DNA from: Cymodocea nodosa
Lineage: Eukaryota > Streptophyta > Magnoliopsida > Alismatales > Cymodoceaceae
Direction of reading: 5' to 3'
NCBI GenBank assembly: GCA_036874045.1
Contig: CM072335.1
Span: 16,946,001 to 17,010,000 of the forward strand
DNA: 64,000 bases
In this document: positions 15,481-40,115 of the stretch, piece by piece
Layout: every line of letters starts with the position of its first letter
Position numbering within the stretch: the stretch's first letter is position 1
Program-made: the position numbers and the translations under genes
The notes under the pieces: model-generated
What the model was told of the DNA's origin: nothing
The model's input: only the letters and a program-made list of their open reading frames with translations
Database searches by the model: none

Positions 15481-16361
15481 TTTCCTAAGAAACAAGAATA
15501 AATTAGAGAAATTTTTGAAAAAGTACAAGTTAACATTCCTTTCTTAGACTTATTGCAGAAAATGCCACCTTGTGCTAAATTTCTTAAGGATTAGTGTACT
15601 AAGAAAAGAGAGTGAAAAGTTTTAAGGAAAGTCTTTTTAGCTGAGGAAAGTAGTTCCCTATTTCTACCACAAATTCCTAAAATGATCCTAGAATCTCTGT
15701 TATATCATGCACCATAGGAAATACTATCCTAGAAAGAACCTTAATAGACCTAGGTGCAGGTATAAATGTTATGCCGAGTAATATATTTACATCCTTAGGA
15801 TTAGAAGGCTTAATCCCTACTAGGACTGTTATTTAGTTAGCTGATAGAAGTATAAGATACCCTAAAGGAAAAATAGAGGATGTCTTAATTAAAATCAAAA
15901 ACTTCATATATCCTATTGATATTGTGATTTTGGATTCCCAACAAATTAAGCATCAGAATCATGATACATCTTTAATTTTGGGAAGACCATTCTTAGCAAC
16001 ATCAAGGGCTATTATAGATTGTAAAATTGGAGTAATGAAGTTAGCATATGGTAATGAGGATACTCAATTAAACATTTTCAAACCAAAAAAGTTTGAGGAG
16101 TTAGAAATGTCGTTACATACTATAAACCTTTTAGAGGATGAAGGAGATATGTTAGATGATGTGATTCAAGAAGAATTAAATAGGCAACTAAATTCTGAAA
16201 CTTTAGAAGTAAGTGAAAGCATAAATGTAGAAGGAGATCAAGAAGAGATTTATATAGAAGATGAAAATGTTAAATTAGGAGCTCTAGCTTCTGATGGTCA
16301 ACATTTAGAATTGAAACATTTACCTCCTGAATTAACTTATATATTTCTGGAAGAAAAATGA
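15481..16361 (+). pseudogene. A2 aspartic protease region
   Basis: IPLLDLLQKMP and AKFLKD precede a retropepsin with LIDLGAGINVMPS (catalytic DLGA, the Athila form of DTGA) near 15740-15780. LGRPFLATSRAIIDCKIG follows near 15980, and then an acidic linker to RT. Broken in several places. Confidence 0.8.
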
Positions 16362-16394
16362 ACATGTCCAATCATTATTGCTTCAAATTTAAAA

Positions 16395-18076
16395 GTGGAT
16401 CAAATTTCTAAATTAAAAGATGTAGTAAAAACTTATAAAGAAGCAATAGGATGGACTATGACTGATATAAAAGGGTTAAGTGCAACTTTATGTTGTCACC
16501 ACATATATTTAGAAGAGAATGCTAAACTAGTTAGAATTCCTGAGAGGAGATTAAATCCAAACCTTAAAGAAGTAGTTAGGAAGGAAATAGTGAAATGGTT
16601 AGATAATGACATAATTCATCCGATTTTTGATAGCTCATGGGTTAGTCCAATCCATGTAGTTCCCAAGAAATCAGGATTAACAGTTATTAGGAATGAAAGT
16701 CAGTACTTGATACCTACTAGAATTCAATCAGGCTGGAGAGTGTGTATAGATTATAGAAAGTTGAATGTTGTGACTAGGAAAGATCATTTTCCCTTACCTT
16801 TTATAGATCAAATGCTAGAGAAATTAGCAGGTCAAGAATATTTTTGTTTCCTAGACGGTTATTCAGGATATAACCAAGTTCCAGTAGCATCAGAGGATTA
16901 AGAGAAAACAACTTTCACATGTCCTAATGGAACTTATGCTTTTAAAAGAATGTCATTCGGATTATGCAATGCACTAACCACCTTTCAAAGGTGTATGTAG
17001 GGCATATTCATTGGAATGACTGAAGATTTTTTAGAAATATTTATGGATGATTTTGCTGTATATGGAACTTCATATGAAGTGTATTTAAACAATTTAGACC
17101 AAGTATTAAAATGTTGTGTGGAAAAAAGTATGGTTCTAAATTAGAAAAAATGTCACTTCATGGTTAAACAAGGAATAGTCTTGGGACATGTTGTTTCAAA
17201 GAAAGGGTTGGAAGTAGATAAAGCTAAAATAGAAGTAATTTCTAATCTACCAGAACCTAAATCAATAAAATATATTAGATCATTTCTAGGACATGCAAGA
17301 TTTTATAGAAGATTTATTAAAGATTTTAGCAAAATAGCTAGACCTTTAACTAATATATTAAAAGATGTCTCATTCAACTTTGATAAAAATTGCAAAGAAG
17401 CATTTTTCAAGCTGAAAACTAGCTTAATTTCAACTCCTATAATTCAAGCACCTGAGTAGAGCCATCCCTTTGAATTAATGTGCGATGCATTTGATTTTAC
17501 TGTAGGAGTAGTGTTGAGACAGAAGATAGAAAAATCTCCTAGAATGATTCATTATGCAAGCAAAACATTGAATGATGCTCAAGTTAATTATATAACTACT
17601 GAAAAAGAACTATTAGCTATTGTGTTTGCTTTAGAAAAGTTTAGATCATATCTGATTGGAGCTAAAGTGATAGTATACACGGATCATTCAACTTTAAAAC
17701 ATCTAATAGCAAAGAAAGAGACTAAACCTAGATTGATTCGATGGATATTATTATTACAAGAATTTGATCTAGAAATTAAAGAAAAAAAAGGTTGTGAGAA
17801 TGTAGTAGATCATTTATCAAGATTACAAATAGAAAAATCAAATATTGAAATTAAGGATAATTTTCTTGATGAACAATTAATGACCATCAACACAATGCCT
17901 TCGTATGCAAATATAGTTAATTACTTAATTATTGGTTTAACACCTAAAGATTGGAATAGACAGGATAAGAAATTGTTCTTTTCAAGAGTAAAATATTACT
18001 ACTGGGAAGACTCATACTTATTTAAGAAATGTCCTGATCTGATTTTAAGGAGGTGTGTTCCAGAAACTGAATATTA
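16395..18076 (+). pseudogene. A2 Gypsy reverse transcriptase and RNase H
   Basis: The RT fingers and palm are recognisable: WVSPIHVVPKK, GWRVCIDYRKLN, HFPLPFIDQMLE, YCFLDGYSGYNQ-like and SFGLCNA. The catalytic box is FMDD near 17040. The connection region has FLGHARFYRRFIKDFS, and RNase H has TDHSTLKHL and DHLSRL. The order and wording fit the Athila lineage. The fossil is broken in several places. Confidence 0.85.
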
Positions 18077-19200
18077 GAGCATATTATCATTCTACCATGA
18101 CCAAGTATGTGGAGGGCATTTTGGTTCAGGGAAAACTGCTGCCAAAATTCTGCAATGTGGATTTTACCGGCCAACACTATTCAAAGATGCTCATAAAAAT
18201 TGCTTAAGTTGTTTAAGATGTCAAAAAATAGGAAGAATATCAAAGAGGAATATGATGTCTCTGAATCTTATTGTTGAGGTTGAAATCTTTGATGTGTGAG
18301 GAATAGATTTTATGGTTCCATTTCCTATGTCTAATCAATTTAATTATATATTATTGGGGGTGGATTATGTATCTAAATGGATAGAAGCTATTCCTACAAA
18401 AACTAATGACAACAAAGTGGTAATACATTTTATAAGAACTAATATAATTGCTAGATTTGGAATACCTAAAGCTATTATCAGTGATAGATGAACTAATTTC
18501 TGTAATAGAAATTTTGAAGCCTTAATGAAGAAATATGGAGTAAACCACAAAATTGTAACATCATATCATCCGCAAACAAGTGGACAAGTAGAAAGTGCAA
18601 ACAAACAAATTAAGTTAATCTCAGAAAAAGTAGTAAATCCTACTAGAACAGATTGGGCTAATAGATTAATAGATGTACTTTGGGCTTATAGAACTGCTTA
18701 TGAGACAAGCTTAGGTATGTCACCTTTTAGGCTAGTATATGGAAAAAGTTGTCATTTACTAGTTGAAATTGAACATAAAGCTTATTGGGTATTAAAAACT
18801 CTAAACACTAATTTAAATCAAGCTTCTAAACATAAGAAAATAAATTGATTGAATTAGAAGAATTTAGGAATGAAGCTTATTCGAAGACTATAAAAGAAAA
18901 AGAGAAAATGAAGTTCTAGCATGACAAGAAAATTATTCCAAAAACTTTTGAAGTAGGACAAGAAGTATATCTTTACAGGACTAGACTCCATAACCATTTA
19001 GGAAAATTAAGATCTAGGTGGGCAAGTCCTTATATAATTCAAAATATTTATTCCTACGGAGCTATTGAAATTTAAAATCTTAAAAATCAGAATATATTTA
19101 AAGTAAATGGACAAAGACTCAGACCTATTCTAAAGATTCCAAAAAGTTCATTTGGAATTATAGAAGAAGTAAGAGTAAAGGACTACTCGAGCTTTACTTA
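18077..19200 (+). pseudogene. A2 integrase
   Basis: A zinc-binding H2C2 part (GHFGSGKTAAKI, SCLRCQK region) precedes the catalytic core: VDYVSKWIEAIPT, IISDR and [17 protein letters not shown] with the DDE-type Glu context. [16 protein letters not shown] follows. The C-terminal part has a GQEVYLYRTRLH-like stretch and LRSRWASPY. Translation-wise it ends near 19200. Gag does not precede this pol. Confidence 0.8.
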
Positions 19201-19792: not shown

Positions 19793-22067
19793 ATGATGAA
19801 GATGACACTAGAGTTTTGGGAGGAAATAGACACGACAAGATTTCTCAAAGAATCAAAAGAATGGCATACGAGATAGAAGATCAGAAATACAACACAGGAG
19901 AAAGAGCTAGAAAAGGTAGAATCTGACATTTCCTACTGGAGGAAAGTTTTAGTAGATTTAGACATAAAAATACCTCAAATTGTGGAAACAAGGATAAAAG
20001 TAGCAATAGAAGTTGCTGTTAACAGAGAAAGAAAAATCAGCCCAAATAATGAAGTTGCCCTAGAGTTAATCTAGCGCAAGTCCAGACTATGGTTTGTGAG
20101 ACACATTGGTAGACATGCCTGGTGGGCAATCTATGAGCAATAGGGGAAAGGAACTGAAGAACATTCAACTAAAGAATAAGAGGAACCGACTACTGAAAGA
20201 CCTGTCCCTGAGGAACAGCAGCCAGGACCTTCAGTTCCACCAACAGAACCATCCATTCCACTGCTAAGGCCGTTAGAAAGAGTAGCATTTTTGGGGCCAT
20301 CTACGCTAGAGGAATGGAAAGAATTTGTAGAGTTGGTTAAAGTTGCCAAGAGCCAAGGAAATTCTAAGGATATGGCTATGGCAAAAATGCATTTACTATA
20401 TGATGCACTCTGCAAGAAAAGGGTCGAAGAAAAGTTGAGCGCCCAATATAAAATTAAAGTGGAGCAACATCAAGAAGCAGCTAGATCAAGAGCTGCAAGA
20501 GAAACTGAAGCTGGTCTTTCGAGATTAGTAAATACAAAAAAGTGAAACAGGAAGAGCCAGTACCTATGGCTCGAGGGCCTGCAGAGCTTATTTTAGTAGA
20601 TTTAATCTCGGAGGAGAAAGAGGAAGACTAGGCACAGCTAATTAGAAGAAAGAAAAGAAAAGAGATAGTGCTTGAACCTCAAGAAGAGATTAAACCTGAG
20701 CTAACAATATCAATAGGGCCTATAGAGCCAATTTTTGTAAACCTGCTATCAGAATCTGAGGAGGAGCAGGAGTAGCAACAGCAAGAGCAAAGAAAAGAAA
20801 AAAAATAGGTTGAAACTAATCTACAGCCTGTACAAACAGAAGATACTAAAATTAGGGCAGAAGTTGATTTGCCCGTGACTCCATCCCAATCTGCCACAGA
20901 ATCAGAAAGAACAGTGACAATGCAAATTGGTAGTCAAGAGGAAGAAGAAGAAGAAATTGAACAAAGAGCTGAACAAGAGCATATGGAACAAAAAGAAAAT
21001 ATCTCGATAGATTCCACTGAAGAGCAAGAGACTCTTCAGCAAATTTTGGAAAGAATTCAAGATAGAAGAGTGGGGAGTTCTGCTGGCTCTCCATCACTAA
21101 CAGAAGCAGAAACAAAAATGCTGGAATCTTCAGATCATTTTCAACAAAGTTAAGTTCAGCACATGGAAGAGGAAATTCAAGAACAAACCACTCTAGAGCA
21201 ACAAATTCAATTTCCTAACCCGACTGAAGCAATGTTCTGAATGAAGTACACTTTTAGTGTCAAGAAGCATATAATAAATATCAAGAGATTAGGGGTTATG
21301 ATATTATTTACAGTAGACCAGTAAACTGGGACGGTATGCAGGAAATCAGAGAATTATTTAAGTTTCAAGGTCTATTGCAAATTATTTCTCAATAGAAAGG
21401 GCATGCAATTTATGAAAATCTAGTGCCCTATTTCTATGCAAATTTGAGAGAAGAAGGACAATTAATTTCCAATGTGGAGCAAGTGGATGTACAAATAACA
21501 CCAGAGCTTCTCCATAACATTTTAGGATTGAAAAATAAAGGAAAAGAAATTTTGGAAAGCACAACTACCGTTGAGTGGACAGAACAGGAAATCAAGGACA
21601 GTTTAGCTATCAATCCTGGTGTGCCATTATTAAATAGACTGAAGCAATTAAATGGAAAAGCACACATAGTAGCTAACATTTTGATTAAGAATGTCTACCA
21701 ACGACAAGACCATGATATTGAGTTGAGTCAATTTGTCAAATGGGCCACATATGCAGTTGTAAATGGAATTCAAGTTAACTAGTGTCAAGTATTCCTGTCC
21801 AAGATAAAATCTGCAAAGTAGAAATTATTTTATGGAGATTTGATACCAATATTAATGGTGGACTGTATAGACTTCATGAAATGGACATCTAAAAGGATAA
21901 AATCAAGAGTCATTTCAGTGAAGGAATACAGAAACTACAATGTTGCAGCTACTAAAATATATGTACCTTCTAGAGACATTATTAAAGTTGTGGATCGAAT
22001 AAATCAATTAGAGCAACAACTAGAGAAGCTCTAGAAGGAAGTAAATGAACTTAGGAGAAAAGACTAA
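19793..22067 (+). pseudogene. A2 env-like ORF
   Basis: Starts MMKMTLEFWEEIDTT and continues with a helical N-terminal part, a Pro/Ser-rich and then very acidic Glu/Gln-rich middle, and a conserved domain from about 21255 to 21990. That domain has IRELFKFQGLLQ, VPYFYANLRE and ITPELLHNILGL, then RLKQLNGKAHIVANILI and ISVKEYRNY-like residues. A C-terminal heptad-like helix ends in RRKD. No membrane segment is evident. The conserved domain aligns with that of the Copia S elements. Broken in several places. Confidence 0.75.
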
Positions 22068-22766
22068 ATGTATTATTCGTCTACTTATATTTTTATTAAA
22101 AGATATTTGAATGAATGTAAATGTAAATTATTCATATAAATGAATGTGTGAATTTCAAATGTTTTTCAATTCGTGTTTGAAAATGAATGATGTAATTGAG
22201 AATTGAATTGAATATTATATAGCTATTTAAAGATGTGAAAGACCGTTTAAAAGATTTACAATTTTATAAATGACATGGTAAATGCATGATGATTGGTTAA
22301 TGCTTGAATATATCTACTTGCTGAAAAGTAAAATATAAATTCTACACAACATGAAATGAATTGTAAGTTAAATATGCATATAATGTTCAGATTTAAATGA
22401 ATTTAAGTTAGAACACTACATTAATGACATGTATTTAACTTTAATTAAATTGACAAAATGTAGAGAATATATATATATATATATAGAAGTTAATACGAGA
22501 AGTAAATTTTAGAAATTTGCTAAGTATTAACTCAACGAACTTAGTCCATTGAGTTACGCTTAACTCCACGAGGTCAATAACAATATATAGGTCACTCTAT
22601 TCAGTTATCTGTAACTCAACGAAGTTAGTCCGTGGAGTTAGCAAACAATAACCTAAGCTAGTTCGTTGAGTTATCTATAACTCAACAAGGTTAGTTCATG
22701 GATTGAGCTGAACGGTTATTCTTTTAGCCATGAACGAAACTTCATGGGTTTAGCAGTTACTGAAAT
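22068..22766 (+). other. A2 env-gag spacer with palindromic array
   Basis: AT-rich, with an (AT)n run near 22468-22485. Between 22526 and 22708 are four to five hairpin-forming units of the type AACTCAACGAACTTAGTCC followed by RTTGAGTTA. The same array is found at the same position in A3 (31688-31870) and C (57165-57395). Confidence 0.8.
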
Positions 22767-23009
22767 TTGAAATTAAAAGTGAAACATGTATCCATAAAAA
22801 CAGGAACCATACTGCACGTTACAAGACACATTCTTACAACGAGATTCATTTGCCTTATGGACGTGCATTATAAATATAGAATAGAATGTTATTTACGAGT
22901 TAACAGCATTTTGAAAGAAAAGAAAATTTGTTGGGGGAACTGGAAGGAGAAGCAACTGATTCAACTTCATCTATCAACAACTATTTACTAAAAACAAAGC
23001 TTCAGACTG
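22767..23009 (+). other. A2 leader exon before the gag intron
   Basis: Sequence conserved in A3 (31386-31640) and C (56911-57130). Its last bases, AAGCTTCAGACTG, are followed by GTATGT, a strong plant splice donor. In A3 the equivalent AAGCTTCAAACTG is joined directly to the F-box exon. It encodes a short Cys/Tyr- and then Glu/Ser-rich stretch with no domain I recognise. The exon frame leads into the F-box frame across the junction. Confidence 0.7.
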
Positions 23010-24617
23010 GTATGTAATTAATGTTCTGCTATTTTACTTTATGTTAAGAGTTTATGAGCACATGGATTCGTTCTCCTAGCACTAAACGATTAGTAAGAAC
23101 ACCTATACAGGATTATTCAACACAGAGGCATACTGAAATATTTTCTGAATTGGACTTTAATGAAATCCTTAGGGGTATAGCTAATCTTTCTTTAAAATAG
23201 AACGTAGATATGCCTGCTCTAGTAGAAAAACCATTAGGAGAAATTCTGTATCCTGAATTAGTTGATGAACCTTCATGTATTCGATTGCCAAACTTTAAGG
23301 GAGATAGGTTTGAACTGAAATCTAATTATATTAGTCAATTGCCACACTTTTATGGATTAGAAAGAGAAGATGCCTATTATTTCCTTAGAGAATTTAACAA
23401 TGTTTGTCAAATGATGAAAATGCCAAACATGAGTATGGATGCTATTAAACTTAGATATATCCCTTTTTCTTTAAAAGACACAACTAAGAGATGGTTATAT
23501 ACTTTGTCGCTTGATTCAATTTCTACATGGATTGAATTTTGCTCTATTTTTCTGGAAAAATATTATCCAACACATCAAACGATTAAAAAGAAAAAGGAAA
23601 TATTAATGTATAGCCAAAAATAGGGAGAATCATTCTGGAAATATTTTGAAAGATTTAAAGATTTATTGACTCAATGTCCACATCATGCAATGAGTAAAGT
23701 ACAATTAATAGGTATAATTTATGAAGGCATAGATGTTTCAACGAAATCTTTATTAGAATCTATTTGTTAGAATGGATTTTTAAAACTGTGTAGTGAAGAA
23801 GCATGGGCATATTTAGAAAACTTTGCAAAAAGAACTGCATAGTGGAAAAATTCAGCTGAAGCTATCACAGATAAAAGAATATTACCAAGAGGAATGCATG
23901 AAATAGATTCAAGCACTATGCTTGAAGTTAAATTAACTAAGTTAACAAAGAAAATAGAAGAGTTATCATTAAATCAAAAGCTAGCAGAAAAGAATGCAAA
24001 TATTAATGATTTAGATATTATTTATGCTAGAAACCAAAAAAATAACTTTGGAAATTCTTATAACCCTAATTAGAGAAATCACCTGAATCTATCTTAAAGA
24101 AATAACAATTTCCAAGGAGGAGAAAATATAAATGATAAAAATATAAGTTATGAAGCATTAATTGAACAAGGATCTAGAATAGAGAAGTTAGAAAAGATAA
24201 TTCAACAATTAAACAATCGTCCAGATCTTGTATTTGGAAATGCTGCCATTCAAAATCAAAATATGAATAGAAATATACCTCCTAGACAGAAGGAATCAAT
24301 GAAAAGTAGACCTACAGGAGAATTGCCAATGCAAGCAATACCTAACCTTGTCAATAGAACTGTTAATGAAATTGATACCTCCTATGGAAGGGAAGCTGAA
24401 TGAAGTAGTATAATTGAAGTAACTATGTGTAATATAGTAAGTAGGAAAATATATATAAAAAGAAAAAAAAATATAAGTTTAATTCTAGTTAGTAGTATCG
24501 TAGAGTTATTACTTAACTCAATGAACTTAGTCCATTGAGTTATGACCTAACTCCATGAGGATATATAAGTAGCTATGTTAATTTTATCTTTGTTAAATTT
24601 TTGTTTATGTTTTATAG
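23010..24617 (+). other. Putative GT-AG intron enclosing gag
   Basis: Donor GTATGT at 23010, acceptor TTTATGTTTTATAG ending at 24617 after a T-rich stretch; 1608 bases. A3 lacks precisely this interval. C retains the donor and the gag. It encloses the whole gag ORF and a palindromic unit at 24512-24560. Splicing is inferred from the A2/A3 comparison, not observed. Confidence 0.8.
23054..24403 (+). pseudogene. A2 gag (Athila-type capsid and nucleocapsid region)
   Basis: Starts MSTWIRSPSTKRLVRTP. The Athila Gag core is clear: ILYPELVDEPSCI, SQLPHFYGLEREDAYYFL, RYIPFSLKDTTKRWLY, FLEKYYPTHQT, then the QWEN-type and NPNWRNHPNLS-like segments. A basic tail and stop at 24403 follow. The frame length (450 codons) is typical of a stand-alone Gag, not a Gag-Pol. 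It sits downstream of integrase and env-like ORFs, inside the putative intron. A few breaks. Confidence 0.8.
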
Positions 24618-24628
24618 AATCACAACAG

Positions 24629-25767
24629 ATGGAATTAATGAAATTACCACTAGATGCACTAAGGGAAGTACTGAGTAACTTATTAGCTAAAGATCTGTGC
24701 AGACTGTGTTGTGTATCAAAGGAAATTAAAGATTGTGTTAGAGAAAAATATTTTCATAGACTACAAGCTGCAAAAATAACTAAGATTAGAGATGGATTTT
24801 TGTGAAAGTCATTTAATCGTAGTTCAATCAGTATGAATATCTGAATATGGAAGAAACTGCTGGAATTTCACCCAATACATTAGAAGGAATAGATCATACT
24901 ATGAGGATAGATGAAAGATTAATTATTTATAGAACAAAACCGAGGTATGCAATTTTGTTACTTGATATTTTGATTAGAAATCCTATCACTAGAGAAGAAT
25001 GGAATGTAGGAAGGCCTAATAGATTTGAAGTGTCAATTGAAAATTGTGGGTCAGCTTTAACATTTTCTAATAAAAATTCAACCATTCCTGAAAAATTATA
25101 TTACTAGAGACCAATTGGAAATTAGGATGAAGATTTATGCCTAAGTGTGTATAATTTTCTAAATAGATATTGGACTAAACATATTATGATATATCTAGGA
25201 CAGAAAGCATTAATTAACAACATACATGTCATACTTGATGGATATATATATCTAGTCTCAGATATATCAGTTGCATTTAAATCTGATTTATACATAGTAA
25301 GCATAGATAGTTATGATGATGACTTTATAGAAATATTACCTATACTTAGTGAGATAGCTAAACCAACGTTTACAGAATATGATAAAATTCAATTAGGAAT
25401 GTGGTATAATAAATATGATGATCCTACTTTATGTCTAATAAGATGGTGGGATGAATTGATGAAATTTCAAATATAGATTATAAAAGACCTAAATGAATGG
25501 AAGTGGGAAGAGGAATATATAGAAATATATGTAGAAATAGAAATAGCTACATTATCTTGGAACAAAAGAGGATCCCTTTCTGCATTTCAATTCATTAATG
25601 GAAATACATTGATATTTAGTATTGACAACATACTGCAAGTCTACATATTAAAAAAGAGAGTAAACTGCATTAAAATAGAATTAATAGCAAGAAGAATTAT
25701 GCCTAAAAGGTTTGCTTGGACTGACACGTTTATTCCATTTTTTACTACTTTTCAATCATGTTCTTAA
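24629..25767 (+). pseudogene. Captured F-box gene in A2
   Basis: An F-box lies at residues about 4-45 (LPLDALREVLSNL, DLCRLCCVSKEIKD), which in intact proteins binds SKP1 in an SCF ubiquitin ligase. An F-box-associated interaction region follows, with IRNPITREEW near residue 100, QLGMWYNKYDDPTLCLIRWW, NGNTLIFSIDN and a C-terminal TFIPFFTTFQS echoing the usual YVESL end. Length about 380 codons is normal for this plant family. The ATG lies 12 bases after the intron acceptor. It is a host-derived gene fossilised inside the retroelement and broken into several frames. The substrate is unknown. A second copy is in A3. Confidence 0.8.
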
Positions 25768-26315
25768 ATTGTGATTCTGTACTTTTAATGTTGTGTGTAT
25801 TATGCATTTATTTTTAGAAAAAAAAAAAAAAACTTTAGTTATATTTTATTTTATTTACTAGAAAAAGAAAAAAAAATACAAAATATCAATCCAATTTGTT
25901 GGTATTTGTTCTAGGAAACTAACTGGCATGCTTGTGAGCCACTAAAGGCATGGGAGCTTGGGTTCCACACAAGACACTGATTTAACAATTTATGTTTTGT
26001 TGTTAAATGTTATTTTGTTATATATTTTACTTTTATTTGTGAATGAAAAGTTTTCAGAATCAAAAGTCAGAGGATATTGAAAGAGGTACAAAAGAACAAG
26101 GTATGTACTTGATTACTTATCTTGAATTTACATTTAAACTCAATTCGTGGAGTTATTCATTAACTCAACGAATTAAGTTTGTTGAGTTAGGTGCTAAGTC
26201 TACGAAACAATATTCATACCTTCTAATATTTACTGTATTTACTGTAAAATCTTTTACATTAAGGACAATGCAAAATGTAGGTATGGGGGGGAGGTAATTA
26301 GATTAGCAGCTATAT
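25768..26315 (+). other. A2 3' tail: conserved block, small exon-like segment, palindrome, G-run
   Basis: Holds a poly(A) run (25818-25833) and a block at about 25893-25960 (GGTATTTGTTCTAGG, GTGAGCCACTAAAGGCAT) also seen in A3 (30035-30110) and, after gag, in B (34700-34780). A small exon-like segment (26058-26100) sits between TTTTCAG and the donor GTATGT and is conserved in A3. A palindromic unit lies at 26137-26208. The end is GTATGGGGGGGAGG near 26281-26294, resembling the G-run that precedes Athila 3' ends. Confidence 0.65.
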
Positions 26316-26345
26316 TGAAGTGAAAGGTTAGATCAAACAACTGGT

Positions 26346-26362
26346 CCCCGGCAACAGCGCCA
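26346..26362 (-). other. A3 primer-binding site (tRNA-Asp type)
   Basis: Reverse complement TGGCGCTGTTGCCGGGG, seven bases from the LTR end at 26370. The leader after it differs from that of A2, so it belongs to a distinct unit. Confidence 0.8.
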
Positions 26363-26369
26363 AAATACG

Positions 26370-28414
26370 TGTTTGGTTTGGTTTTGTTAACTTCTATTTT
26401 TACTTGTTTAATTTGTCTTTATGCTTATATCAATAATTACTTTTAGAAGTAAACTAACATCCTTTCACACAAATTAAATATTAATTCCAATTTGTATTTC
26501 AACTGCAAGTGCATAGTGTATATTGTATTTGTGTGCAAGTATAGGTCAATCCCATAGAGAGTTGAGTAAGAATTGTGTACTTTCCTGATTTTTATATTGG
26601 AGTTATTGTGTGTTTAGTTAAGCACTCCGCTGAATTACAGTTAACATAACGGGCCTAGTTTGTTGAGTTATGGATAACTCAACAGACTAACCTCGTGAAC
26701 TTAAGTTAACTCCACGAGTCTATCTTTCCATTTAAATACTGCTATTTACAGAGGAATTCGACCAACCATTTGAGTGGTTCCACAGATTGTAAATAACATC
26801 AATTAAGCTCTTTAATGCTAGTTAATATTAGATTTATCATTAAGCAACACTAACATTCAGATATTTCAAACAGTAACCATTAAAATCTTTAAGTATCTAG
26901 AATAAATCAATTTCAGTAAACTATAAAACTATTATCTATTTTCTGAATTAAACAAACATAAAACATTCACAATACTGACAATGATAACATTAATCACGAT
27001 ACAACACAAACAATACAACACTTTAATACTAAATGTAAACAGAGATAAGTTATTGATTTTGGTATTTTTGTTTTGATATATTCCTAAAGATGAATGAAAG
27101 GTGAAATGTAAAAATCTCTATCAACAGTAAAAACTTTTGTCACTACATGCGACGCGATTACACCACTAAAAACTTAATCACTTACAATCTTGTCTCCTCC
27201 CCCTATAGAATCGCAAGTCTAAAATTGTAAGATGATCTCCTCTTCAGCATACTGGCATCAACCCAAAACCAAGTCTAGAAGCTTTACGATCTCCTAAGAT
27301 ATGAATCGGTGTTTGGTGAAAATGGCTTCCCTTCCCACGACACGATCACTCCTCACAGTGGTTGTCAGGCACTGTGTTTGGCTCAGAATCAATCCGACAT
27401 CAAAAAAGTATTCTCACAGACCTCCGATGGTTAATGATTATGGTGGTGGTGTGTGTTGAGCTATATTTTTAGCTCAAGCTTTACTGCAAGTGCATAGTTC
27501 TTTTGGTGTACATGGAAAATACAGGTCATTCTTCCACAAGGATTGTGTTTATGACTTAATCAACTATTACTCAACTTGTTCTTCAAGCTCTTAGGTATAC
27601 TTCAGTAAATTAATGACATGTGAATGTAGAATAATCAAAGTTAACACAAGCTCACAAATCATGCAATTTCAAGGCAATGTGTAGTGTAAAATGGTGATGT
27701 GAATCAATTTCTTTACTTGTAAATCTATCAACTCATTCAATTATAACATGCACACAAGTTCCACGTGATTTTAGAAGTGATATCCATGCATCAATATTGA
27801 GGAAAGAAAAATAAAACAAGAAGGTTCAATAGACTATACTACTCTATTCTAATTTATACTAAATGCATGCAACTATGCTATTTGCTAATCTAGCTAAACT
27901 ATACTATATATACTACTTGCATTAGAAATTCTTTTTGGAGATTGATTAGGACAAAATGTGATCAATATAAGATATAACAAACTCAATTAACTATCTGACT
28001 TAACGAGTTCAGATATTTTGGATACTTACGAATCTAACTATCTGATGACTAGATGCATTTTGGATAGTTAACAGACAACTTACCGAAAATCCACTTAAGT
28101 CATGCAAGGTTTCAACATGTGTATTCCAAGAAATAATAAAATATTCTTTTAAAACATACTATCTGGTACATGTAGTATAACTCTCCGAAATAACAAAAAG
28201 TTCGGATACTTAAGAATTTTACAGCTTGCAATTTACTGACAGTTCAAAAATGTACTAAATTAACATTAATTCCTTGAAATTATGTAGATTCTTTCATTAA
28301 AGCATATAATAGTGCAATTATAACATAATGGCTTAATTCTCATATGATAAGCTAAATATTATGCAATTAACTATAATTTAATCGTTAATATTATGCACTT
28401 TTTCATTCTAAACA
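26370..28414 (-). repeat. A3 LTR
   Basis: Ends are rc TGTTTAGAATG at 28414 and rc CCAAACA at 26370, as in A1 and A2. The middle (about 27455-27960) is replaced by unrelated LTR-like sequence, listed separately. Outside that, it is about 10% different from the A1 LTR in a sampled stretch. Confidence 0.8.
27455..27960 (-). repeat. Foreign LTR-like segment inside the A3 LTR
   Basis: Begins TGTTGAGCTATATTTTTAGC and carries CTGCAAGTGCATAGTTC and an ACAGGTCATTCTTCCAC stretch. This is the layout of an Athila-type LTR end, but the sequence differs from the A and B LTRs. No target duplication was seen. It replaces the TATA-bearing part of the A LTR. It may be a recombinant piece of a third family. 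Confidence 0.5.
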
Positions 28415-28470
28415 CTTCCCCCATAATTAAATTTTGCTAGTCCCTTAGCAAACTAAGATTTAACTAGTTG
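28415..28470 (-). other. A3 polypurine tract and conserved 3' lead-in
   Basis: Reverse complement TTATGGGGGAAG directly precedes the LTR start. It is preceded by TTTGCTAAGGGACTAGCAAA, a lead-in I recall from the 3' ends of plant Athila/Tat elements. Confidence 0.7.
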
Positions 28471-28499
28471 GTCTTTCTAAAGTACTAGAATGAATTATT

Positions 28500-29695
28500 C
28501 ACTTCATTCTTCTTCAGCATAATAAATTAGATTACTATATAGATATTCTGTATGTTTTAGTAATCTATTTTAACTTTTTTTTCTCCTCTTCAACCTACAA
28601 ATATATTTAGAACATATGTAAATTACGTACAAAATATATCAACATTACATAGGTGTTAATTATATTATTATTTTTTCTTCTTTTCAGCATTTGTCATCTT
28701 GAATTTTCCAATATGATTTCCAAAATAAATTTCAACAACATACGAATCAAAACAAATCCAATTCAATATGATTAAGACAAGTAGAATAAAGAATTGTATC
28801 TCAGATAAACAACTTCAAAAGTCTATTCTAGATTCATACTTCAGTAATCTTAGATAACAGAAAATATACTCGATTCAAAAGATATCTGTATTTCACAAAA
28901 CACTTGTATCTTTTCAAAATAGTATATGCATATTTGTACTTTAAAAGTTAATTTGAAAAGCTTGAATCATATATGAGCTTTCTAGTGTACCATGTATCGA
29001 GCATTCAGTCAACAATCCCAGATCTGATCAGGACCTTAGGTTGCCAGATTTAAAGAGTCCTTTTCAGGTCAACAATCCTTACATACCTATCTACTCAAGT
29101 ACAAAAAGCTCGTGATCAAACAAGTCAATAAACTCTCAAAGTTTTTTTCTCTTTTTTTTCTTTTTTTTTTTTCTTTTCAACACAGTATATGTACGCATTT
29201 CATTCATACAGATGCAATAAAACACAAATCTCATATAGTTCTGCTTCCATAATTTACTGAAAATATGAATCTATATCAATAAGCTCATACTTTTTCTGTA
29301 GTTTAATAAGATTTACACATAAATCATTCTACAAGTTTAATCAATCAAATTAAATGTATCCTTGATTATATGCATCTCATTTAATCCAAAAATCAACATT
29401 TCAGCTCTTTCAAGATTTCAGATAATTTATTGAGTTTCAGTTAAGCATTCTGATTTCTTTTTTTTTTCTTTTTTTTAAAATCATGAAACAGTTAAACTCA
29501 TAAAGTTCAGTAAAAACATAAGATACTATATCTAGATTTGTATGAATAGTAAAATTCTGTAGCATCTTATATAACATTCTAAATATAACATTCAAGCAGT
29601 TACAGTCTCAATTATCAAATAGTTACAGCAAATTCATAAAAAAATTTCAATTTCCACAAAACTTTTGCAGTACCATTCTAATTCCTTTAATTAAC
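28500..29695 (-). repeat. S-type pol-env spacer fragment within A3
   Basis: Colinear with the S2 spacer (about 42930-43900). Landmarks are CAACAATCCCAGATCTGATC, AGGACCTTAGGTTGCCAGAT, CAACAATCCTTACATACCTA and AACACAAATCTCATA. Similarity looks about 70-75% overall and higher in the conserved block (28975-29125). T-rich runs at 29135-29175 and 29455-29475 are expansions. It sits between the A3 G-run near 29725 and the polypurine tract at the LTR. Confidence 0.75.
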
Positions 29696-30238
29696 AAAAT
29701 TACATGGCTGTTACTTTAATTACCTCCCCCTCATACCTATATTTTGCAATGTCCTCAATGTAAAAGATTTTACGATAAATATAGTAATTGTAGCAGGCAT
29801 GAATATTGTTTCATTGATTTAGCAGCACCTAACTCAACGAACTTAATTCGTTGAGCTAATGAATAACTCCATGAACTAAGTTTAAATGTACATTCAGGAT
29901 AAGTAATCAATTACATACCTTGTTCTTTTGTATCTCCTTCCATATCTTCCAATTTTTTATTCTGAAAAACTTTTCATTTATAAATAAAAGTAGAATATAT
30001 AACAAAATAACAAAACTTGTTAAATCAGTGTCTTGTGTGTAAACCAAGCTCCTATGCCTTTGGTGGCTCACAAGCAAGCCAGTTGGTTTCCTAGAATAGA
30101 TACCAACAAACTAGATTGATATTTTGTTTTTTTCTTTCTTATAAAATAAAACTACAACTAAAAATTTTCTTTTCTTCTTTTTCTTTTTCTAAAAATAAAT
30201 GCAGATTACACACAACATTAAAAGCACAAAATCACAGT
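29696..30238 (-). other. A3 3' tail
   Basis: Colinear with the A2 tail: G-run (rc GTATGAGGGGGAGG, 29725-29740), palindrome (29826-29890), exon-like segment with a conserved GTATGT donor (29913-29918), and the conserved block (30035-30110). Confidence 0.7.
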
Positions 30239-31374
30239 TTAAGAACATGATTGAAAAGTAGTAACAAATGGAATAAACGTGTCAGTCCATGCAAACTTTT
30301 TAGGCATAATTCTTCTTGCTATTAATTCTGTTTTATTATAGTTTGCTTTCCTTTTTAGCTTGTAAACTTGCAGTATGTTATCAATACTAAATATAAGTGT
30401 ATTTCCATTAATGAAATGAAATGCAGAAAGGAATCCTCTTCTGTTCGAAGATAATGTAGCTATTTCTATTTCTACATCTATTTCAACATATTCCTCTTCC
30501 CACTTCCATTCATTTAGGTCTTTTATAATCCATATTTGAAATTTCCTCAATTCATCCCACCATCTTATCAGACATAAAGTAGGATCATCATATTCATTAT
30601 ACCACATTCCTAATTGAATTTGATCATTTTCTGAAGATGGTGGTTTAGCTATATCACTCGGTATAGGTAATATTTCTATAAAATCATCATAACTGTCTAT
30701 GCTTACGATGTATAAATTAGATCTAAATGCAACTAATATATCTATGAATAGATATATATATCCATCAAGTATGACATGCATGCTGTTAATTAAAGTTTTC
30801 TATCCTAGATATATCATAGTATTTTCAGTCCAAGATCTATTTAGAAAATTATATACACTTAAGCATAAATCTTCATCCCAATTTCTAGTTGGTCTCCAAT
30901 AATATAATTTTTCAATAATGGTCAAATTTTTATCAGAAAATATTAAAGATGACCCACAATTTTCAGTTGGTACTTCATATCTATTAGGCCTTCCTATATT
31001 CCATTCTTCTCTAGTGATAGGATTTCTAATCAAAATATCAGGTAACAGAATTGCATACCTTGGTTTGGTTCTGTAAATAATCAATCCTTCATCTATCCCC
31101 ATAATATGATCTATTCCTTCTAACATATTGGGTGGAATTCCAATAGTTTCTTCCATATTCAGATATTCATAGGTGATCGAACTACGATTAAATGACTTCC
31201 ATAAAAATCATCTCTATTCTTAGTCATTTTTGCAGCTTGTAGTCCATGAAAATATTTTTCTCTAACACAGTCTTTAATTTCTTTTGACACACAACACAAT
31301 CTGCATAGATCTTTAGCTGATAGGTTACTTAGTACTTCCCTTAGTGCATCTAGTGGTAATTTCATCAAATCCAT
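30239..31374 (-). pseudogene. Captured F-box gene in A3
   Basis: Better preserved than the A2 copy. The F-box starts MDLMKLPLDALREVLSNL. Later come IRNPITREEW, a QLGMWYNEYDDPTLCL and WWDELRKFQIWIIKD segment, LSAFHFINGNTLIFSIDN and the C-terminus TFIPFVTTFQS. The family role is substrate recognition for SCF ubiquitin ligases; the target is unknown. The 5' side joins the leader exon at 31385/31386 without the gag-containing intron. Few breaks. Since the same flanks accompany it in A2, it is element cargo and not a nearby host locus. Confidence 0.8.
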
Positions 31375-31385
31375 CTATTGTGATT

Positions 31386-31640
31386 CAGTTTGAAGCTTAA
31401 TATTTAGTAAATAGTTGTTGACGGATGAAGTTGAATCAGCTACTTCTCCTTCCAGTTCCCCAATGAATTTCCTTTTCTTCCACAAGTGCTGGTAACTTGT
31501 AAATAACATTCTATTCTATATTTATAATGCATGTCCATAAAGCAAATGAATCTCGTTGCAAGAACGTGTCTTGTAACGTGCAATGTGGTTCCTATTTTTA
31601 TGGGTATGTGTGCCACTTCTAATTTCAAATTTCAGTAACC
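31386..31640 (-). other. A3 leader exon, spliced form
   Basis: Matches A2 22760-23009 and C 56911-57130. The last bases, CTTCAAACTG, run straight into AATCACAATAG before the F-box ATG. That is exactly the joint predicted by the A2 donor and acceptor. Confidence 0.8.
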
Positions 31641-32324
31641 GCTAAACCCACAAAGTTTCGTTCATGACTAAAAGAATAACTGTTTAGCTTAATCCACGAA
31701 CTAACCTCATTGAGTTATAGTTAACTCAACGGACTAGCTTTAGTTACTATTGCTAACTCTACGGACTAACTTCGTTGAGTTACAGATAACTCAATAGAGT
31801 GACCTTATATTATATTATTGACCTCATGGAGTTAAGGTTAACTCAACAGACTTACTTCGTTGAGTTAACACTTAGTAATTTTCTAAAACTTACTCCTCGT
31901 ATTAACTTCTATATATTTTTTCTCCTACATTTTTTCAATTTAAATAAAGTTAAATACATGTCATTAATGAAGTGTTCTAATCAAAACTCATTTAAATTTG
32001 AACATTATATAAATATTTAACTTGCAGTTCATTTTATGTTATGCAGAATTTATATTTTACTTTGCATCATGCAGATATTTTCAGCATTAACCAATTATCA
32101 TGCATTTAATCCTGTCATTCATAAAATTTATATACCTTTTAAACGGTCTTGTATCTTATTCAAACAGTTATATAATATTCAAGATAGTTCATCCATTACA
32201 TCATTCTCAAGCATAAATGCAAAAACATCTGAAAAACATACATTCGTTTATATGAATAGTTTACATTACAATCAATCAGATATTTTTCATACAATTATAA
32301 GTACAAGTAGACAAACAATACAAT
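31641..32324 (-). other. A3 env-leader spacer with palindromic array
   Basis: AACTCAACGGACTAG...GTTGAGTTA-type hairpin units at 31688-31870, then AT-rich sequence colinear with A2 22068-22520. No conserved ORF. Confidence 0.75.
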
Positions 32325-33804
32325 CTAATCTTTTCTCCTAAGTTCATCTACTTCCTTCTGGAGTTTTTCTAATTGTTGCTTTAATTGATTTATCCTTTCT
32401 ATAACTCTTGTAATTCCTCCAAAGGGTTCAGCAATCTCTACAGCAGCATAATTTCTATATTCTTTCACTGAAATGGTTCTTGATCTTATCCTTTTGAATT
32501 CCCATTTCGTGAAATCAATATTGTCCACCATTAGCAGTGGAATCAGATCTCCATAAAATAATTTCTTCTTTACTACTCTCAACTTGGAGATAAAAACTAC
32601 AAACCAATTAATCTAAATTTTATTCACAATTGCATATGTGGCCCATTTGACAAATTGACTCAGTTCTATATCATGGCCTTGTCATTGGTAGACATTCTTA
32701 ATTAAAATGTTAGCTATCATGTGTGGTTTACCATTTAAGTGCTTCAGTCTATTTAATAATGGCACACCAAGATTGATAGCTAAACAATCCTTTATTGTCC
32801 GTTCTGTCCATTCGACTGTAGTTGCGCTTTCTAGAATTTCTAGTCCTTCATTCTTCAGTCCTAAAATGGTGTGGAGAAGCTCTGGTGTTATCTGTACATC
32901 AGCTTGCTCCACGTTGGAAATTAATCCACTTTCTCCTTCCCTTAAATTTGCATAGAAGTAGGGCACTAGATTCTCATATACTGCATGCCTTCTCTCTTGA
33001 GAAATAAACTACAGTAGACCTTGGAACTCAAATAAATCCTTAATTTCTTACATCTCATCCCAATTTACTAGTCTACTATAAATGATATCATAACCCCTAA
33101 TCTCTTGATATTTATTATATGCTTCCTGACTCCAAAAGTGTACTTCATTTAAAACTATTGCTTCAGTCGGGTCAGGAATGTGAATTTGTTGCTCTAGAGG
33201 GGTTTGTTCTTGAACTTCCTCTTCCATTTGCTGAACTTGAATTGACTGAAAATGCTCCGAAGATTCCTGCATTTTTGCTTCTACTTCTGTTTGTGGTGGA
33301 GAGCTAGTAGAACTCTCCACTCTGTCTTGAATTCTTTCCAAAATTTGCTGAAGAGTTCCTTGCTCTTCAGTGGAATCTATAGAGTCATTTCTTTCCATAT
33401 GTACTTGTTCAACTTCTTGTTCAATTTCTTCTTTTTCTTCTCCCTCCTAACTACCAATCTGCATTGTCACTATTCTTTCTGATTCTGTGGCAGATTGGGA
33501 TGGAGTTACGAGCAAATCAGCTTCTGCCCTAATTTCTGTTTCTTCTGCTTGTACAGACTGTAGATAAGTTTCAGCCTGATTTTCTTCTTCTTTTTGCTTT
33601 TGCTACTACTGCTCATCTTTAGAATTGGATAGCAGGTTTACAAAAATCAGCTCTGTAGGCCCTACTGATATTTGCATCTCAGATTTAATCTCTTCTTGAT
33701 GTTTACACACTATCTCTTTTCCTTTCCTTCTTTTGATTAATTGTGCCTAGTCTTCCTCTTCTTCTTCTAAGATTAAATCTACAAAAACAGGCTCTACAGG
33801 CCTT
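32325..33804 (-). pseudogene. A3 env-like ORF, N-terminus missing
   Basis: Acidic Glu/Gln-rich part followed by the conserved domain: HFWSQEAYNKYQEI, IKDLFEFQGLLQFIS-like, ITPELLHTILGLKNE, RLKHLNGKPHMIANILIK and RTISVKEYRNYAA. The terminal helix is IERINQLKQQLEKLQKEV. Similar to A2 and C throughout. Starts where B sequence ends near 33805. A few breaks. Confidence 0.75.
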
Positions 33805-33805: not shown

Positions 33806-34267
33806 GAGTGTGTTTTTCAAGTAAAAATACAATAAAGTCATACATCTAAAATTTTAAAATATGAGCCTATCAAAGCAATTGTAATGAAATGAAATTCACC
33901 TTCCCCCCATGCTTAAATCTAACATTGTCCTTAATGTAATATAAAAGAGGGGATATAGATATCATACCAGATTGAAGTCACTTAAAGTCAAACCTTATTC
34001 CATACCTGTGATGCCTGCGTGGAATTCTTGTTAGAAAAATATCTTGAAAATTACATATAAGGCATGTACTAAAGGTTATAAGTTGAAGATAATACAACAT
34101 AATCTATAATGAAATAACTGTTTCAGCCTACTACATGTTGTCTTATTCATGCATCATTAAATTATATGTTAATCAAAGAAAGAAAAACCCTGGTCAATTT
34201 GAACAATAAAGCATTGAATTTCCGCATCCATCTTCTTTCGTGGTTTCGCATTCGTCATCTTTGGCTC
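33806..34267 (-). other. B 3' end region with G-run
   Basis: Reverse complement GCATGGGGGGAAGG (33904-33917) follows CATTAAGGACAATGTTAG, matching the ACAATG...TATGGGGG layout of the A2 tail. No LTR follows; B is cut near 33805. No convincing ORF. Confidence 0.6.
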
Positions 34268-34784: not shown

Positions 34785-36173
34785 TTAATCTCCCCCTTGA
34801 GGACCTCCACTAGGCCCAGGATTTTGAGGTCCAGGCCTAGGGTGACTTCGAGGGTTAGGGACAGGTTGGCTTGGTAATTTGCCTCTAGGCCTATTAGCAA
34901 CTAATTGAGTAATACTATGCATTTGTTGCTGCAAAGCCCTAATTGCTACTTCAACATCGAAAGTTGTGGCTTGCTGCATTGGCTTAGGAGGTTGCCTTAC
35001 TAACGACTCTAAATTTTTATGGAAATCAGCCATTTGTCTCTCCAAGTTATCTAACCTCGAATGTTCTTGAGATGGCTGACGAGTAGGTATACCAAAGCTT
35101 GGCTAATCTCTGGAATTAGAAGTAGAGGCATTAAAATTGTTATCTCTCCAAGAGAAGTTAGGATGATGCCTCCAAGATGGGTTATATGTGGTGCCATAGT
35201 TCTCATTATGTCCCTTATAAAAGATGGCATTGACCTCCTCAATAGAATTAGCACCACAAATTGTTGAACATACATCAATAGCATGACCAATCCCATTGCA
35301 ACCTACACAAGTTGGCATTTGTGGCATTTCCTTAGCCTTTCCTTTCTCTTGTAGTTCCTCAAATTTCTTCAAAAAGGCATTAAGCTTAGCATCTACTATT
35401 ATGCCAACATCAACATTATGCATTCCTCTAGGCATTTGAGACCTATCCTGCCTTGGATCTCTAGAATGCTCCCATTGGCCTGTTCTCTTAGCAAAATCAC
35501 TTAAAAATTGCCATGCATCAATGCTATTCAAATTTAAGAATCCATTCTGGAAAGTGGACTCAAGCAAGGTCTTTGTTGCCACATCCACACCCTCATAAAT
35601 AATACCTACTAGTTGTGCCTTGCTAATACCATGGTGGGGGCATTTTGTGAGCAAGTCACGAAATCTCTCAAAGTATCTCCAGAATGACTCACTAGGTTTC
35701 TGATGGCAAAACCAGATTTCTCTTTTCTTCTTAATGGTTAGGTGTGTAGGATAATACTTCTCTAAAAATAAAGAGCAGAACTTGCTCTAGGAGTCTATTG
35801 TGCTTGGCTCTAAAGAATAGAGCCATCTCTTCGCTGCCTCCTTGAGAGCAAAAGGAATATACCTTAACTTAACAGCTTCAAGGGACATATGGGGTACCTT
35901 CATCATTTGAGACACCTCATTAAACTCTTTCAGAAAGTAATGAGCATCTTCTCTCTCAATTCCATGAAAGTTAGGCAATTGGCTAATAAAATGAGGCTTT
36001 AATTCAAATCTATCCCCATCAAATTCGGGTAAGGCAATACAGGATGGTTCGTCTACTAGTTCAGGGTATAGGATATCTCCTATAGTAGGTTCAGTCTCTG
36101 CCATTTGATCACCTACTTCCAAGTTCACATGTCTAATCAACCAGTTATGAGAATCCCTAACCCAACCACGCAT
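34785..36173 (-). pseudogene. B gag (capsid, zinc knuckle, coiled coil)
   Basis: Athila-type Gag: ILYPELVDEPSCIALPEFDG, SQLPNFHGIEREDAHYFL, YIPFALKEAAKRWLYSL, KCPHHGISKAQLVGIIYEG, a CVGCNGIGHAIDVC knuckle (CX2CX4HX4C), YNPSWRHHPNFSWRDN, a coiled coil with LERQMADFHKNLESLV and a Pro/Gly-rich end. It stops there and lacks the VTLRSG-protease continuation found in canonical Athila; that part is in the first ORF, upstream of RT. It lies 215 bases downstream of integrase. Few breaks. Confidence 0.85.
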
Positions 36174-36216
36174 ACACTAAAGTTCTAGAGATAACAGAAA
36201 ATAATTGAAAGCTTAC

Positions 36217-36277
36217 CAGAAATGATTTCACTGTAGAATTGCTCAAGCCAACCTTGAACCTTCCTAATCTGGTCCTC
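36217..36277 (-). other. Mini-exon-like segment between B integrase and gag
   Basis: 61 bases bounded by TTTTCTTATTTTTAG on one side and GTAAGC on the other, open in at least one frame. Upstream is a long T-rich stretch. In the A family a donor also lies just before gag, so the two families share the plan exon, donor, gag. Inference. Confidence 0.45.
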
Positions 36278-36387
36278 CTAAAAATAAGAAAACAAGTTAA
36301 TTACTAAACTCAAAAGGAGAAATAAACTAAAAGAAAACAAACAAAACAAAGATAAAAGGAAAGGAAAAATAAAATCTGCTATTCCAT

Positions 36388-37830
36388 TTATTCATATTGA
36401 GGTTCTTGTAAATTCTCCTCTCTAGCTTTGAAATCAATACTAGCAGGTGTCTTCAGAATAGGTTTGAGCCTTTGTCCATTAACTTTGAAAATGGTGTGGT
36501 CTTTAGGATTCTTGATATCTACGGAACCATAAGGATATACCTTATGCACCACAAAAGGTTTAGCCCAACGAGATCTTAACTTACCAAGATGAGTATGAAG
36601 CCTAGACATATACAACCAAACATCTTGTCCAAGGACAAATGATTTCTTACTTATCTTTTTATCATGAATAGCTTTCATTTTCTCTTTCCCTGAGACAGTT
36701 CTCACATAAGCTTCATCCCTCATCTCCTCTAATTCTGCCAATTGAAACTTCCTAAGTGGGCCGGCTACTTCTAAATCCAAATTGAGTTTCTTTATAGCCC
36801 AAAAAGCTTTATACTCCAATTCTGTTGGCAAGTGACAAGCTTTCCCATATACCATTCTATAGGGGGTCATTCCAAGGGTAGTCTTGTAAGCAGTTCGGTA
36901 TGCCCATAGTGCATCCAAACTTATCTGCCCAATCCCTTCTTGTGTGGTTAACCATCTTTTCCAAAATTGTCTTAATTTGTTTATTAGCACTCTCAACTTG
37001 ACCACACGTTTGGGGGTGATAAGGGGTAGCAATTTTATGCACAATTCCATATTTTCTCATTAAAGCCTCAAAACTTCTATTGCAAAAATGTGTACCCCTA
37101 TCACTTATAATAGCTCTAGGCATACCAAACCTTGATATAATATTATTTCTTACAAATTTCACAACTACCTTGTTATCATTAGTTCTGGTAGGGATAGCTT
37201 CAATCCACTTGGAAACATAATCAACTGCCAACAACACATAAAGATATCCTACTGAAATGGGAAATGGGCCCATGAAGTCAATCCCCCAAACATCAAATAC
37301 TTCAACTTCAATAATGGGGTTGAGAGGCATCGTGTTCCTCTTTGAAATTTTTCGCAGTTGTTGACATCTAGCACAACTTATACAATATTGATGTGCATCC
37401 TTGAATAAAGTTGGCCAGTAAAATCCACACTACACCACCTTGGCAGCAATCTTCCTAGAGCCGAAATGTCCCCCACATGCTTAGTCATGGCAAAAGGAAA
37501 GAACACTCCTAACCTCATTGTTAGGGATGCAACGTCTCCAGATCAAGTCTGGGCATTGCTTAAACAAATAAGGATCATCCCATTAAAAATACTTGAATCG
37601 AGATAAGAAGATCTTCCTATCCTACCTTGTCCAATCATGAGGCATCGATCCCATGACTAAATAATTAACAATACCTGCAAACCATGGGACGACATTAAGC
37701 ATTAAAACTTGCTCATCAAGAAATGACTCTCCAACTTCTGAATTTGAGGGTGCTAACTATAGTCTGGATAAATGATCAGCTACAACATTTTCACATCCTT
37801 TCTTGTCTTTGATTTCAATATCAAATTCCT
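36388..37830 (-). pseudogene. B integrase
   Basis: Catalytic core with VWGIDFMGPFP, VDYVSKWIEAIPT, AIISDRGTHFCN and [18 protein letters not shown]-terminal [40 protein letters not shown] and an end at 36388. Typical Athila wording. The zinc-binding part lies at about 37390-37560. Few breaks. Confidence 0.85.
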
Positions 37831-38006
37831 ACAGCAATAAAATCCATCTCATCAGACGTGATTTGGCATCCTTCTTTGCCGACAAATACTTTAATGCTGC
37901 ATGATCTGTATACACAATTACTTTGGCTCCAATCAGATATGACCTAAATTTCTCCAAAGCAAATACAACAGCCAAAAGTTCTTTCTCAATGATTGCATAA
38001 TTGATG
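37831..38006 (-). pseudogene. B RNase H, distal piece
   Basis: Continues RNase H after the S2 insertion: [43 protein letters not shown]. 38002-38006 (attga) is the left target-site copy of S2. Confidence 0.85.
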
Positions 38007-39619: not shown

Positions 39620-40115
39620 ATCTCCCCCTTTTTGATGATGACAAAACCATATTAAATCAATTATGAAATATGTATAACTCAACAAAGCACATTCGTTGGG
39701 TTAACTTTCAATTCAACAAACCTGTTTGTTGACTTAAGTTCACTTAAGCTTATTTCTATTGTTTGTGTAAATTTTACCTCTCAGAACTAAAACTCTTAGA
39801 TGTCAATAATTATATAAGTATCAGTTTTCTAATTATCATCTGTCATATTACAATAACCATTTAAATAGCATCTCCTTTTATAATATATATATGCAATTAA
39901 GATCATAATCATCTTTTTATAATATTTCTCCCCCTTTTTGTCATTAATCAAAAAGATAATTACAAAGAATATATATACATATATAAGAGAATTACAACAA
40001 CAATTTCTGTAAACAAGAATAATAATTGAACACATTTACAGAAAAATGTATTGTTCAATGAATCAAACAAGTAATACAAACATTACATTTTGTATTCAGA
40101 AACAAACAAAAACAG
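39620..40115 (-). other. S2 3' untranslated region and polypurine tracts
   Basis: Holds the LTR-adjacent tract (39620-39633) and an earlier one near 39927-39940 (rc AAAAAGGGGGAGAAAT), both in the GACAAAAAGGGGGAGA layout. AT-rich, no conserved ORF. Confidence 0.75.

Follow-up and report, generated by a model that had tools for sequence, protein, structure and literature searches.

A 64,000-nucleotide stretch of Cymodocea nodosa DNA (contig CM072335.1, positions 16,946,001 to 17,010,000; hereafter the window, in whose coordinates positions are given) holds three copies, A2, A3 and C, of one large Ty3/gypsy-type retrotransposon family with long terminal repeats (LTRs) of about 2.1 kb. In this family, the gag capsid open reading frame (ORF) lies within a segment with the features of a spliceosomal intron, ahead of an exon carrying an F-box ORF. 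Spliced RNA of the element has very probably been reverse transcribed and integrated, producing gag-less copies, a judgement that covers either of the two forms of copied RNA considered below. The features around the joint are:

23000–23009, + strand: end of exon 1 in A2, CTTCAGACTG, directly before the splice donor.
23010–24617, + strand: A2 intron, 1608 bases, GTATGT...TTTTATAG, from sequence reading, self-comparison and the donor and acceptor forms in the genome.
23054–24403, + strand: gag capsid ORF within the intron, interrupted by stops in A2 (PF03732; tblastn 23054–23839, 87%).
24618–25764, + strand: exon 2 with the F-box ORF, ATG at 24629, broken in A2 (PF00646, E = 5.7e-10).
31386–31395, − strand: end of exon 1 in A3, CTTCAAACTG, joined without gap to exon 2 at 31385.
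30239–31385, − strand: A3 exon 2 with the F-box ORF, one frame break and one stop (tblastn, 86–90% to the F-box ORF of another copy).
55828–56908, − strand: copy C, donor at 56908/56907, gag at 56877–55828, acceptor side lost (self-comparison, sequence reading and tblastn).

An earlier, sequence-only reading had described A3 as A2 minus a 1608-base GT-AG intron, exact to the base, and both the sequence and the alignment of the flanks confirm it. The A2 segment has GT-AG ends, a consensus donor (GTATGT) at 23010 and the T-rich TTTATCTTTGTTAAATTTTTGTTTATGTTTTATAG before 24618, where exon 2 begins with AATCACAACAGATGG. Exactly this segment is absent from A3, whose exon 2 opens with AATCACAATAGATGG from 31385 on the − strand (junction 31386/31385). 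Self-comparison of the window gave 83% identity between the upstream flanks (20570–23009 in A2 vs. 33808–31386 in A3) and 88% between the downstream flanks (24617–26313 vs. 31386–29704), the alignment gap sitting at the GT-AG ends. As for C, said by the same reading to keep the intron, its donor (CTTCAGACTA followed by GTATGT) and about 1.1 kb of the intron are indeed present on the − strand, but the similarity to A2 ends at 55828 (A2 position 24103) and C therefore does not show the acceptor.

The genome (374.6 Mb in 28 contigs) was then covered by a pattern search, with reversed patterns as controls. The joint of the A3 form, which defines subfamily 1 and was searched with up to two mismatches, occurs at 41 places vs. 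none for the reversed pattern, which excludes chance as its source. The acceptor form of this subfamily was found at 906 places and the donor form at 2673 (one control match each). One donor locus, L079, read through to its acceptor, gave a second start of exon 2, AATCGACAAATGG, defining subfamily 2; the exon 2 starts thus differ by subfamily (AATCACAAYAG vs. AATCGACAA). The joint predicted for subfamily 2, CTTCARACTG joined to AATCGACAAATGGAA, is present at 199 places, 89 of them exact (control 0), and its acceptor form at 1212 (control 1). As a whole, the two subfamilies possess 240 joints vs. 2118 acceptor forms, about a tenth, and gag is absent from the joint copies (240 joints, A3 included), as in BARE2-like elements. 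Intron-containing and intron-less forms thus coexist in the genome, and the same joint recurs at 41 + 199 places in two subfamilies, in agreement with the sequence-only reading, which had set one precise joint against ragged deletion ends.

Removal of the 1.6-kb segment by ordinary DNA recombination, by chance or at a deletion-prone site, is extremely improbable as the origin of these joints. The region does have such deletions (L056, L075, L077 and L079), and those in three of the 30 sampled donor loci (L075, L077 and L079) each have different end points. However, the only sequence common to the two ends of the segment is a single G, so no repeat favours such a deletion, and hundreds of joints are identical, with none ragged within 30 bases among the matches listed. 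When 0 to 30 free bases were allowed at the joint, 14 of the 15 matches in subfamily 1 were the exact joint, the 15th being unrelated sequence (control 0), and in subfamily 2 the exact joint was found in all 100 listed of 102 matches (control 1). These gap patterns require exact anchors and therefore catch only part of the joints, while larger ragged deletions escape them.

Recurrence was analysed in subfamily 1, on flank trees built without the joint itself. Loci were sampled in listing order (30 of 41 joint, 30 of 2673 donor and 30 of 906 acceptor loci), the donor and acceptor samples coming mostly from contigs C1 and C2. Rows with short or interrupted similarity to A2 were dropped, leaving 38 of 60 loci downstream, 47 of 61 rows upstream, and 54 and 53 of 60 for the short flanks. 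Joint copies are scattered among intron copies on these trees: the downstream tree has 10 changes, at least four of which are forced by its starred branches, and the upstream tree 12, at least eight of them forced. A single clade of joint copies is rejected downstream (p-AU, the approximately unbiased test, 8e-60) and upstream (7e-63), as well as on flanks of 400 bases (6e-6 upstream, 6e-5 downstream) and 200 bases (4e-8 upstream, 0.002 downstream). With one clade rejected even at 200 bases, the loss occurred more than once. The joint and intron labels show only weak clustering, 50 and 12 of 500 shuffles being as low. There are also well-supported groups of joint copies, namely L010/L036 on the downstream tree, and L024/L030 with L036, L019/L026 and L033/L034 on the upstream tree; joint copies therefore seem to multiply as well. 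A test of near-private sites for L031 and A2 (3 and 2 sites, with higher values for other pairs) was too weak for use.

These small, well-supported clades would also be expected if a spliced copy had arisen once, its joint then spreading as it was amplified and recombined with intron-bearing copies, and so might the 89 exact joints among the 199 of subfamily 2. Such a single origin is nevertheless unlikely, one clade being rejected for all segments compared, the shortest of 200 bases per side, and the two subfamilies having different exon 2 starts.

Concerning the nature of the copied RNA, the anatomy of the element holding A2 (element D) has to be considered. Its features outside the joint region, followed by those retained by A3, are:

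12301–14453, + strand: 5′ LTR, starting with TGTTTAGAATG, its end set by eye before the primer binding site (blocks of 85–87% to the LTR behind A3).
14461–14478, + strand: primer binding site, TGGCGCCGTTGCCGAGGA, read in the sequence.
14550–15434, + strand: 5′ ORF ahead of protease, with no capsid domain detected (0 Pfam matches at E ≤ 0.01, 0 NCBIfam matches).
15681–18668, + strand: protease (15681–16391), reverse transcriptase (16362–16898), RNase H (17460–18074) and integrase (18156–18668).
21396–21779, + strand: ORF with PF20167 (Putative plant transposon protein; E = 3.2e-6, below Pfam's cut-off).
22869–22876, + strand: TATAAATA, candidate internal promoter (TATA box), 141 bases before the donor.
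26280–26297, + strand: GGTATGGGGGGGAGGTAA, polypurine motif in the 3′ region, read in the sequence.
32607–32993, − strand: PF20167 ORF retained upstream of the A3 joint (protein match).
28415–28424, − strand: polypurine tract ATGGGGGAAG abutting the LTR of A3, read in the sequence.
26370–28414, − strand: 3′ LTR behind A3, its end set by eye (blocks of 85–87% to 12301–14453).

The order protease, reverse transcriptase, RNase H and integrase is that of Ty3/gypsy elements. In pol, Pfam support comes from RVT_1 (E = 2e-5, below the cut-off) and RT_RNaseH, while protease and integrase were placed by tblastn with proteins of a second family, E. LTRs, primer binding site and polypurine tract stand at the expected places, the LTRs compared being from different copies; the LTR at 12301–14453 also matches one at 3816–1476 in blocks of 72–82% identity. 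From 18800, just past integrase, to the donor, the sequence is matched by a single piece of at least 3.4 kb at 23 of the 37 scored places besides the window, mostly with the initial 400 bases of the query as a separate piece about 100 bases off; it therefore belongs to one element, not to a nested pair. Exon 2 is matched up to the polypurine tract at 30 of 40 scored places besides the window; at one further place the match stops no more than 80 bases short.

Capsid matches in the window are confined to 23054–24112 (A2), 56877–55828 (C) and 36143–35106 (E), so that the capsid gene lies 3′ of integrase in both D and E. PF03732 reaches E = 4.3e-5, at Pfam's cut-off, in the A2 intron ORF and E = 7.3e-21 in the corresponding gag ORF of copy L096. 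By tblastn, the capsid query gave no match to the 5′ ORF at 14550–15434, of which a second copy lies at 1309–433 (− strand). The primer binding site, which we take to be of the tRNA-Asp type, and PF20167 would presumably lead toward the Athila lineage. The gene order of that lineage, with gag 5′ of protease, is not the one seen here, the capsid being 3′ of integrase and the 5′ ORFs without a PF03732 match.

Element sequence is present upstream of the joint in all 30 sampled joint copies, over at least 213 bases and thus past the TATA position at −141, and over more than 1.3 kb in 26 of them, in some cases in pieces; an mRNA started at the internal TATA box would therefore have been too short to serve as the only template. 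The joint copy at C18:8469670 contains the sequence that lies just behind integrase. On the other side, joint copies at C3:19905702 and C17:870707 match from exon 2 to the polypurine tract. The polypurine tract and LTR into which A3 itself runs show that it was replicated through the LTR pathway. Precise intron loss would likewise be expected of pseudogenes processed from F-box mRNA by long interspersed nuclear elements, but the upstream extension in 30 of 30 copies and the 3′ end of A3 make this origin hardly credible, and for A3 it was rejected.

Exact TATAAATA was found at most 210 bases upstream of the donor in 40 of 60 sampled copies, and in 32 of them it stands at −141 or −142. A short F-box mRNA started there might itself have been spliced, the reverse transcriptase then switching to a co-packaged genomic RNA and so placing the joint in a full-length cDNA. 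Template switching is usual in retroelements, and the sequence at hand does not separate this variant from copying of an element-length spliced RNA; yet it needs two molecules where one is enough, and we regard it as the rather doubtful form of the proposal. An identical joint would also be expected if the intron had been lost in place, a chromosomal copy recombining with cDNA of its own spliced mRNA without new insertion. Recombination with cDNA is the classical route of intron loss, but 240 losses among scattered repeats seem a large number for it and an LTR element has a route of its own, which makes loss in place highly unlikely.

Integration of reverse-transcribed spliced RNA, as the sequence-only reading had proposed for A3, is thus supported by exact, recurrent joints in two subfamilies and, in subfamily 1, on different branches. 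The anatomy suggests the following course. With the capsid gene wholly within a spliceosomal intron, unspliced RNA would yield Gag from the ATG at 23054, behind the donor, while intron removal would bring the F-box ATG to 11 bases past the joint and allow the F-box protein to be made; the gag and F-box products would accordingly be alternatives of one splice choice, as that reading had put it. Spliced RNA, most simply of element length, would be reverse transcribed and inserted as part of the element's own replication cycle. Repeated many times in at least two subfamilies, the process would leave gag-less copies dependent on intron-bearing ones, and Gag from another copy is needed by the joint copies. 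Splicing in vivo, packaging, supply of Gag in trans and use of the two products are what we infer from the DNA. It is conceivable, if short of probable, that the capsid gene of the family was relocated to an intron behind integrase, that one splice choice sets particles against F-box protein, and that spliced genomes form recurrent, self-renewing gag-less satellites of an autonomous class. One might speculate that the F-box product acts on host silencing, by analogy with the P0 proteins of poleroviruses, described as having an F-box-like motif and being able to target ARGONAUTE1 (PMC6593998).

Several points weigh against this interpretation. Splicing is seen here only as cDNA-like joints in DNA, and neither paired LTRs nor a target-site duplication nor pol was seen in any joint copy. 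A3 is incomplete, its match to A2 ending at 33808, where E-family sequence adjoins. Recombination between elements could carry one intron-less joint onto several backgrounds, and the short flanks, although opposing a single origin, hold little signal per copy. The recurrence test covered subfamily 1 only. In the E family, a joint of CATTTCTG, which precedes GTAAGC (36217/36216), to the ATG near 34423 had no matches (gap of 0–30 bases, exact letters): either gag does not lie in such an intron there, or the acceptor is elsewhere, or exact letters were too strict. At no sampled locus holding intron sequence was a gag frame of more than 302 amino acids open. Finally, the pooled ratios of nonsynonymous to synonymous change (dN/dS) give no clear sign of selection when set against shifted frames (F-box, 0.62 vs. 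0.56 and 0.68; gag in 30 donor loci, 0.60 vs. 0.66 and 0.71; gag in donor and acceptor loci, 0.66 vs. 0.63 and 0.75).

The sampled copies are decayed, with no F-box frame above 272 amino acids; in-frame stops in the F-box ORF number 224 vs. 1641 and 2109 in the shifted frames. A codon-position test (56 of 60, 30 of 30 and 54 of 60 rows) gave no signal with all variants (p = 0.13, 0.76 and 0.70). It was repeated without C>T and G>A, the methylation-type changes, variants being counted as shared when found in at least four copies. Shared variants were then enriched at third positions in the F-box ORF (52/35/70 vs. 219/238/219 for single variants, p = 0.0025) and in the first part of gag (10/9/26 vs. 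177/181/184, p = 0.006), and weakly so in the rest of gag (63/64/97, p = 0.054). Once methylation-type changes are omitted, there is thus modest support for past constraint on both ORFs. None of the 208 candidates from a protein search with the F-box ORF reached E ≤ 0.001.

Splicing in plant LTR elements, reverse transcription of spliced HIV-1 RNA and gag-less parasites are already known. In the barley copia elements BARE1 and BARE2, splicing of element RNA likewise controls Gag, and gag-less BARE2 RNA is described as packaged in BARE1 particles (PMC3735527). However, BARE splicing makes the Gag RNA whereas here it would remove gag, and replication is, by the authors' argument, confined to unspliced transcripts, whereas here the spliced form is integrated by the hundred (PMC3735527). 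Ogre, of the Tat lineage, is also a plant Ty3/gypsy element with an intron reported as spliced from a subset of transcripts (PMC6317226), and Bagy2 and other env-like plant elements are reported to use a spliced subgenomic RNA for a 3′ ORF (PMC7264820, PMC3735527); that ORF is env-like, whereas here gag lies 3′ in the intron and the last ORF is the F-box. For soybean Diaspora, packaging and reverse transcription of improperly spliced RNA was proposed to remove a gene in one step, a proposal that concerned env, while here exact joints occur many times, for gag (PMC1142308). Reverse transcription of spliced HIV-1 RNA is documented for infected cells, in contrast to the heritable genome copies seen here (PMC1868081). 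Orchid Ty3/gypsy elements with a 2-ODD domain have similarly gained a host-type domain, although a different one, with Gag and Pol in one ORF, and the passages describing them mention no splice switch (PMC9289625). Neither an F-box in an element of this kind nor gag behind pol in plants was found in searches of one open-access library, which is weak evidence of absence. The present counts are evidence, from the genome itself, of repeated re-entry of an LTR element's spliced RNA; according to PMC3735527 elements must avoid this step, and for Diaspora it was only proposed (PMC1142308). The family is thus a test bed for the origin of gag-less satellites, the packaging of spliced genomes and the reason for an F-box gene in a retrotransposon.

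The distant E family is represented in the window by:

34788–37429, − strand: E-family stretch with integrase (37429–36860) followed by gag (36143–35106).

Here too, gag lies behind integrase, and among 40 scored genome places this arrangement is matched in full at nine others and nearly in full at one. At 25 of the 40, the E query is matched only to its position 1098–1120 (window 36303–36281) and then stops, so that many E copies hold other sequence or none in place of gag. At 33808–33893 (− strand), the A3 part borders on the 3′ portion of the E element. Sequence comparison found no similarity between the 5′ flank of E and the LTR behind A3, and E and A3 may thus represent two fused families. 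At its other end, the A3 LTR (26345–28414, − strand) directly abuts a primer binding site, next to which lies the 3′ end of A2 in inverted orientation; the arrangement resembles a fusion of two elements or a rearranged tandem copy.

As for the copia elements of the window, one at 38005–51174, with LTRs 97.4% identical (38005–39621 and 49556–51174), is inserted into the E element. Copia elements at 10742–11110 (+ strand) and 40811–40497 (− strand) have an ORF about 35% identical to the gypsy PF20167 ORF. Motifs of the AACTCAACGAACTTAGTCCGTTGAGTTA type recur upstream of exon 1 and inside the intron, with a related form in a copia LTR:

22500–22700, 24490–24560, 31640–31880 and 38894–38999: AACTCAACGAACTTAGTCCGTTGAGTTA-type motifs.

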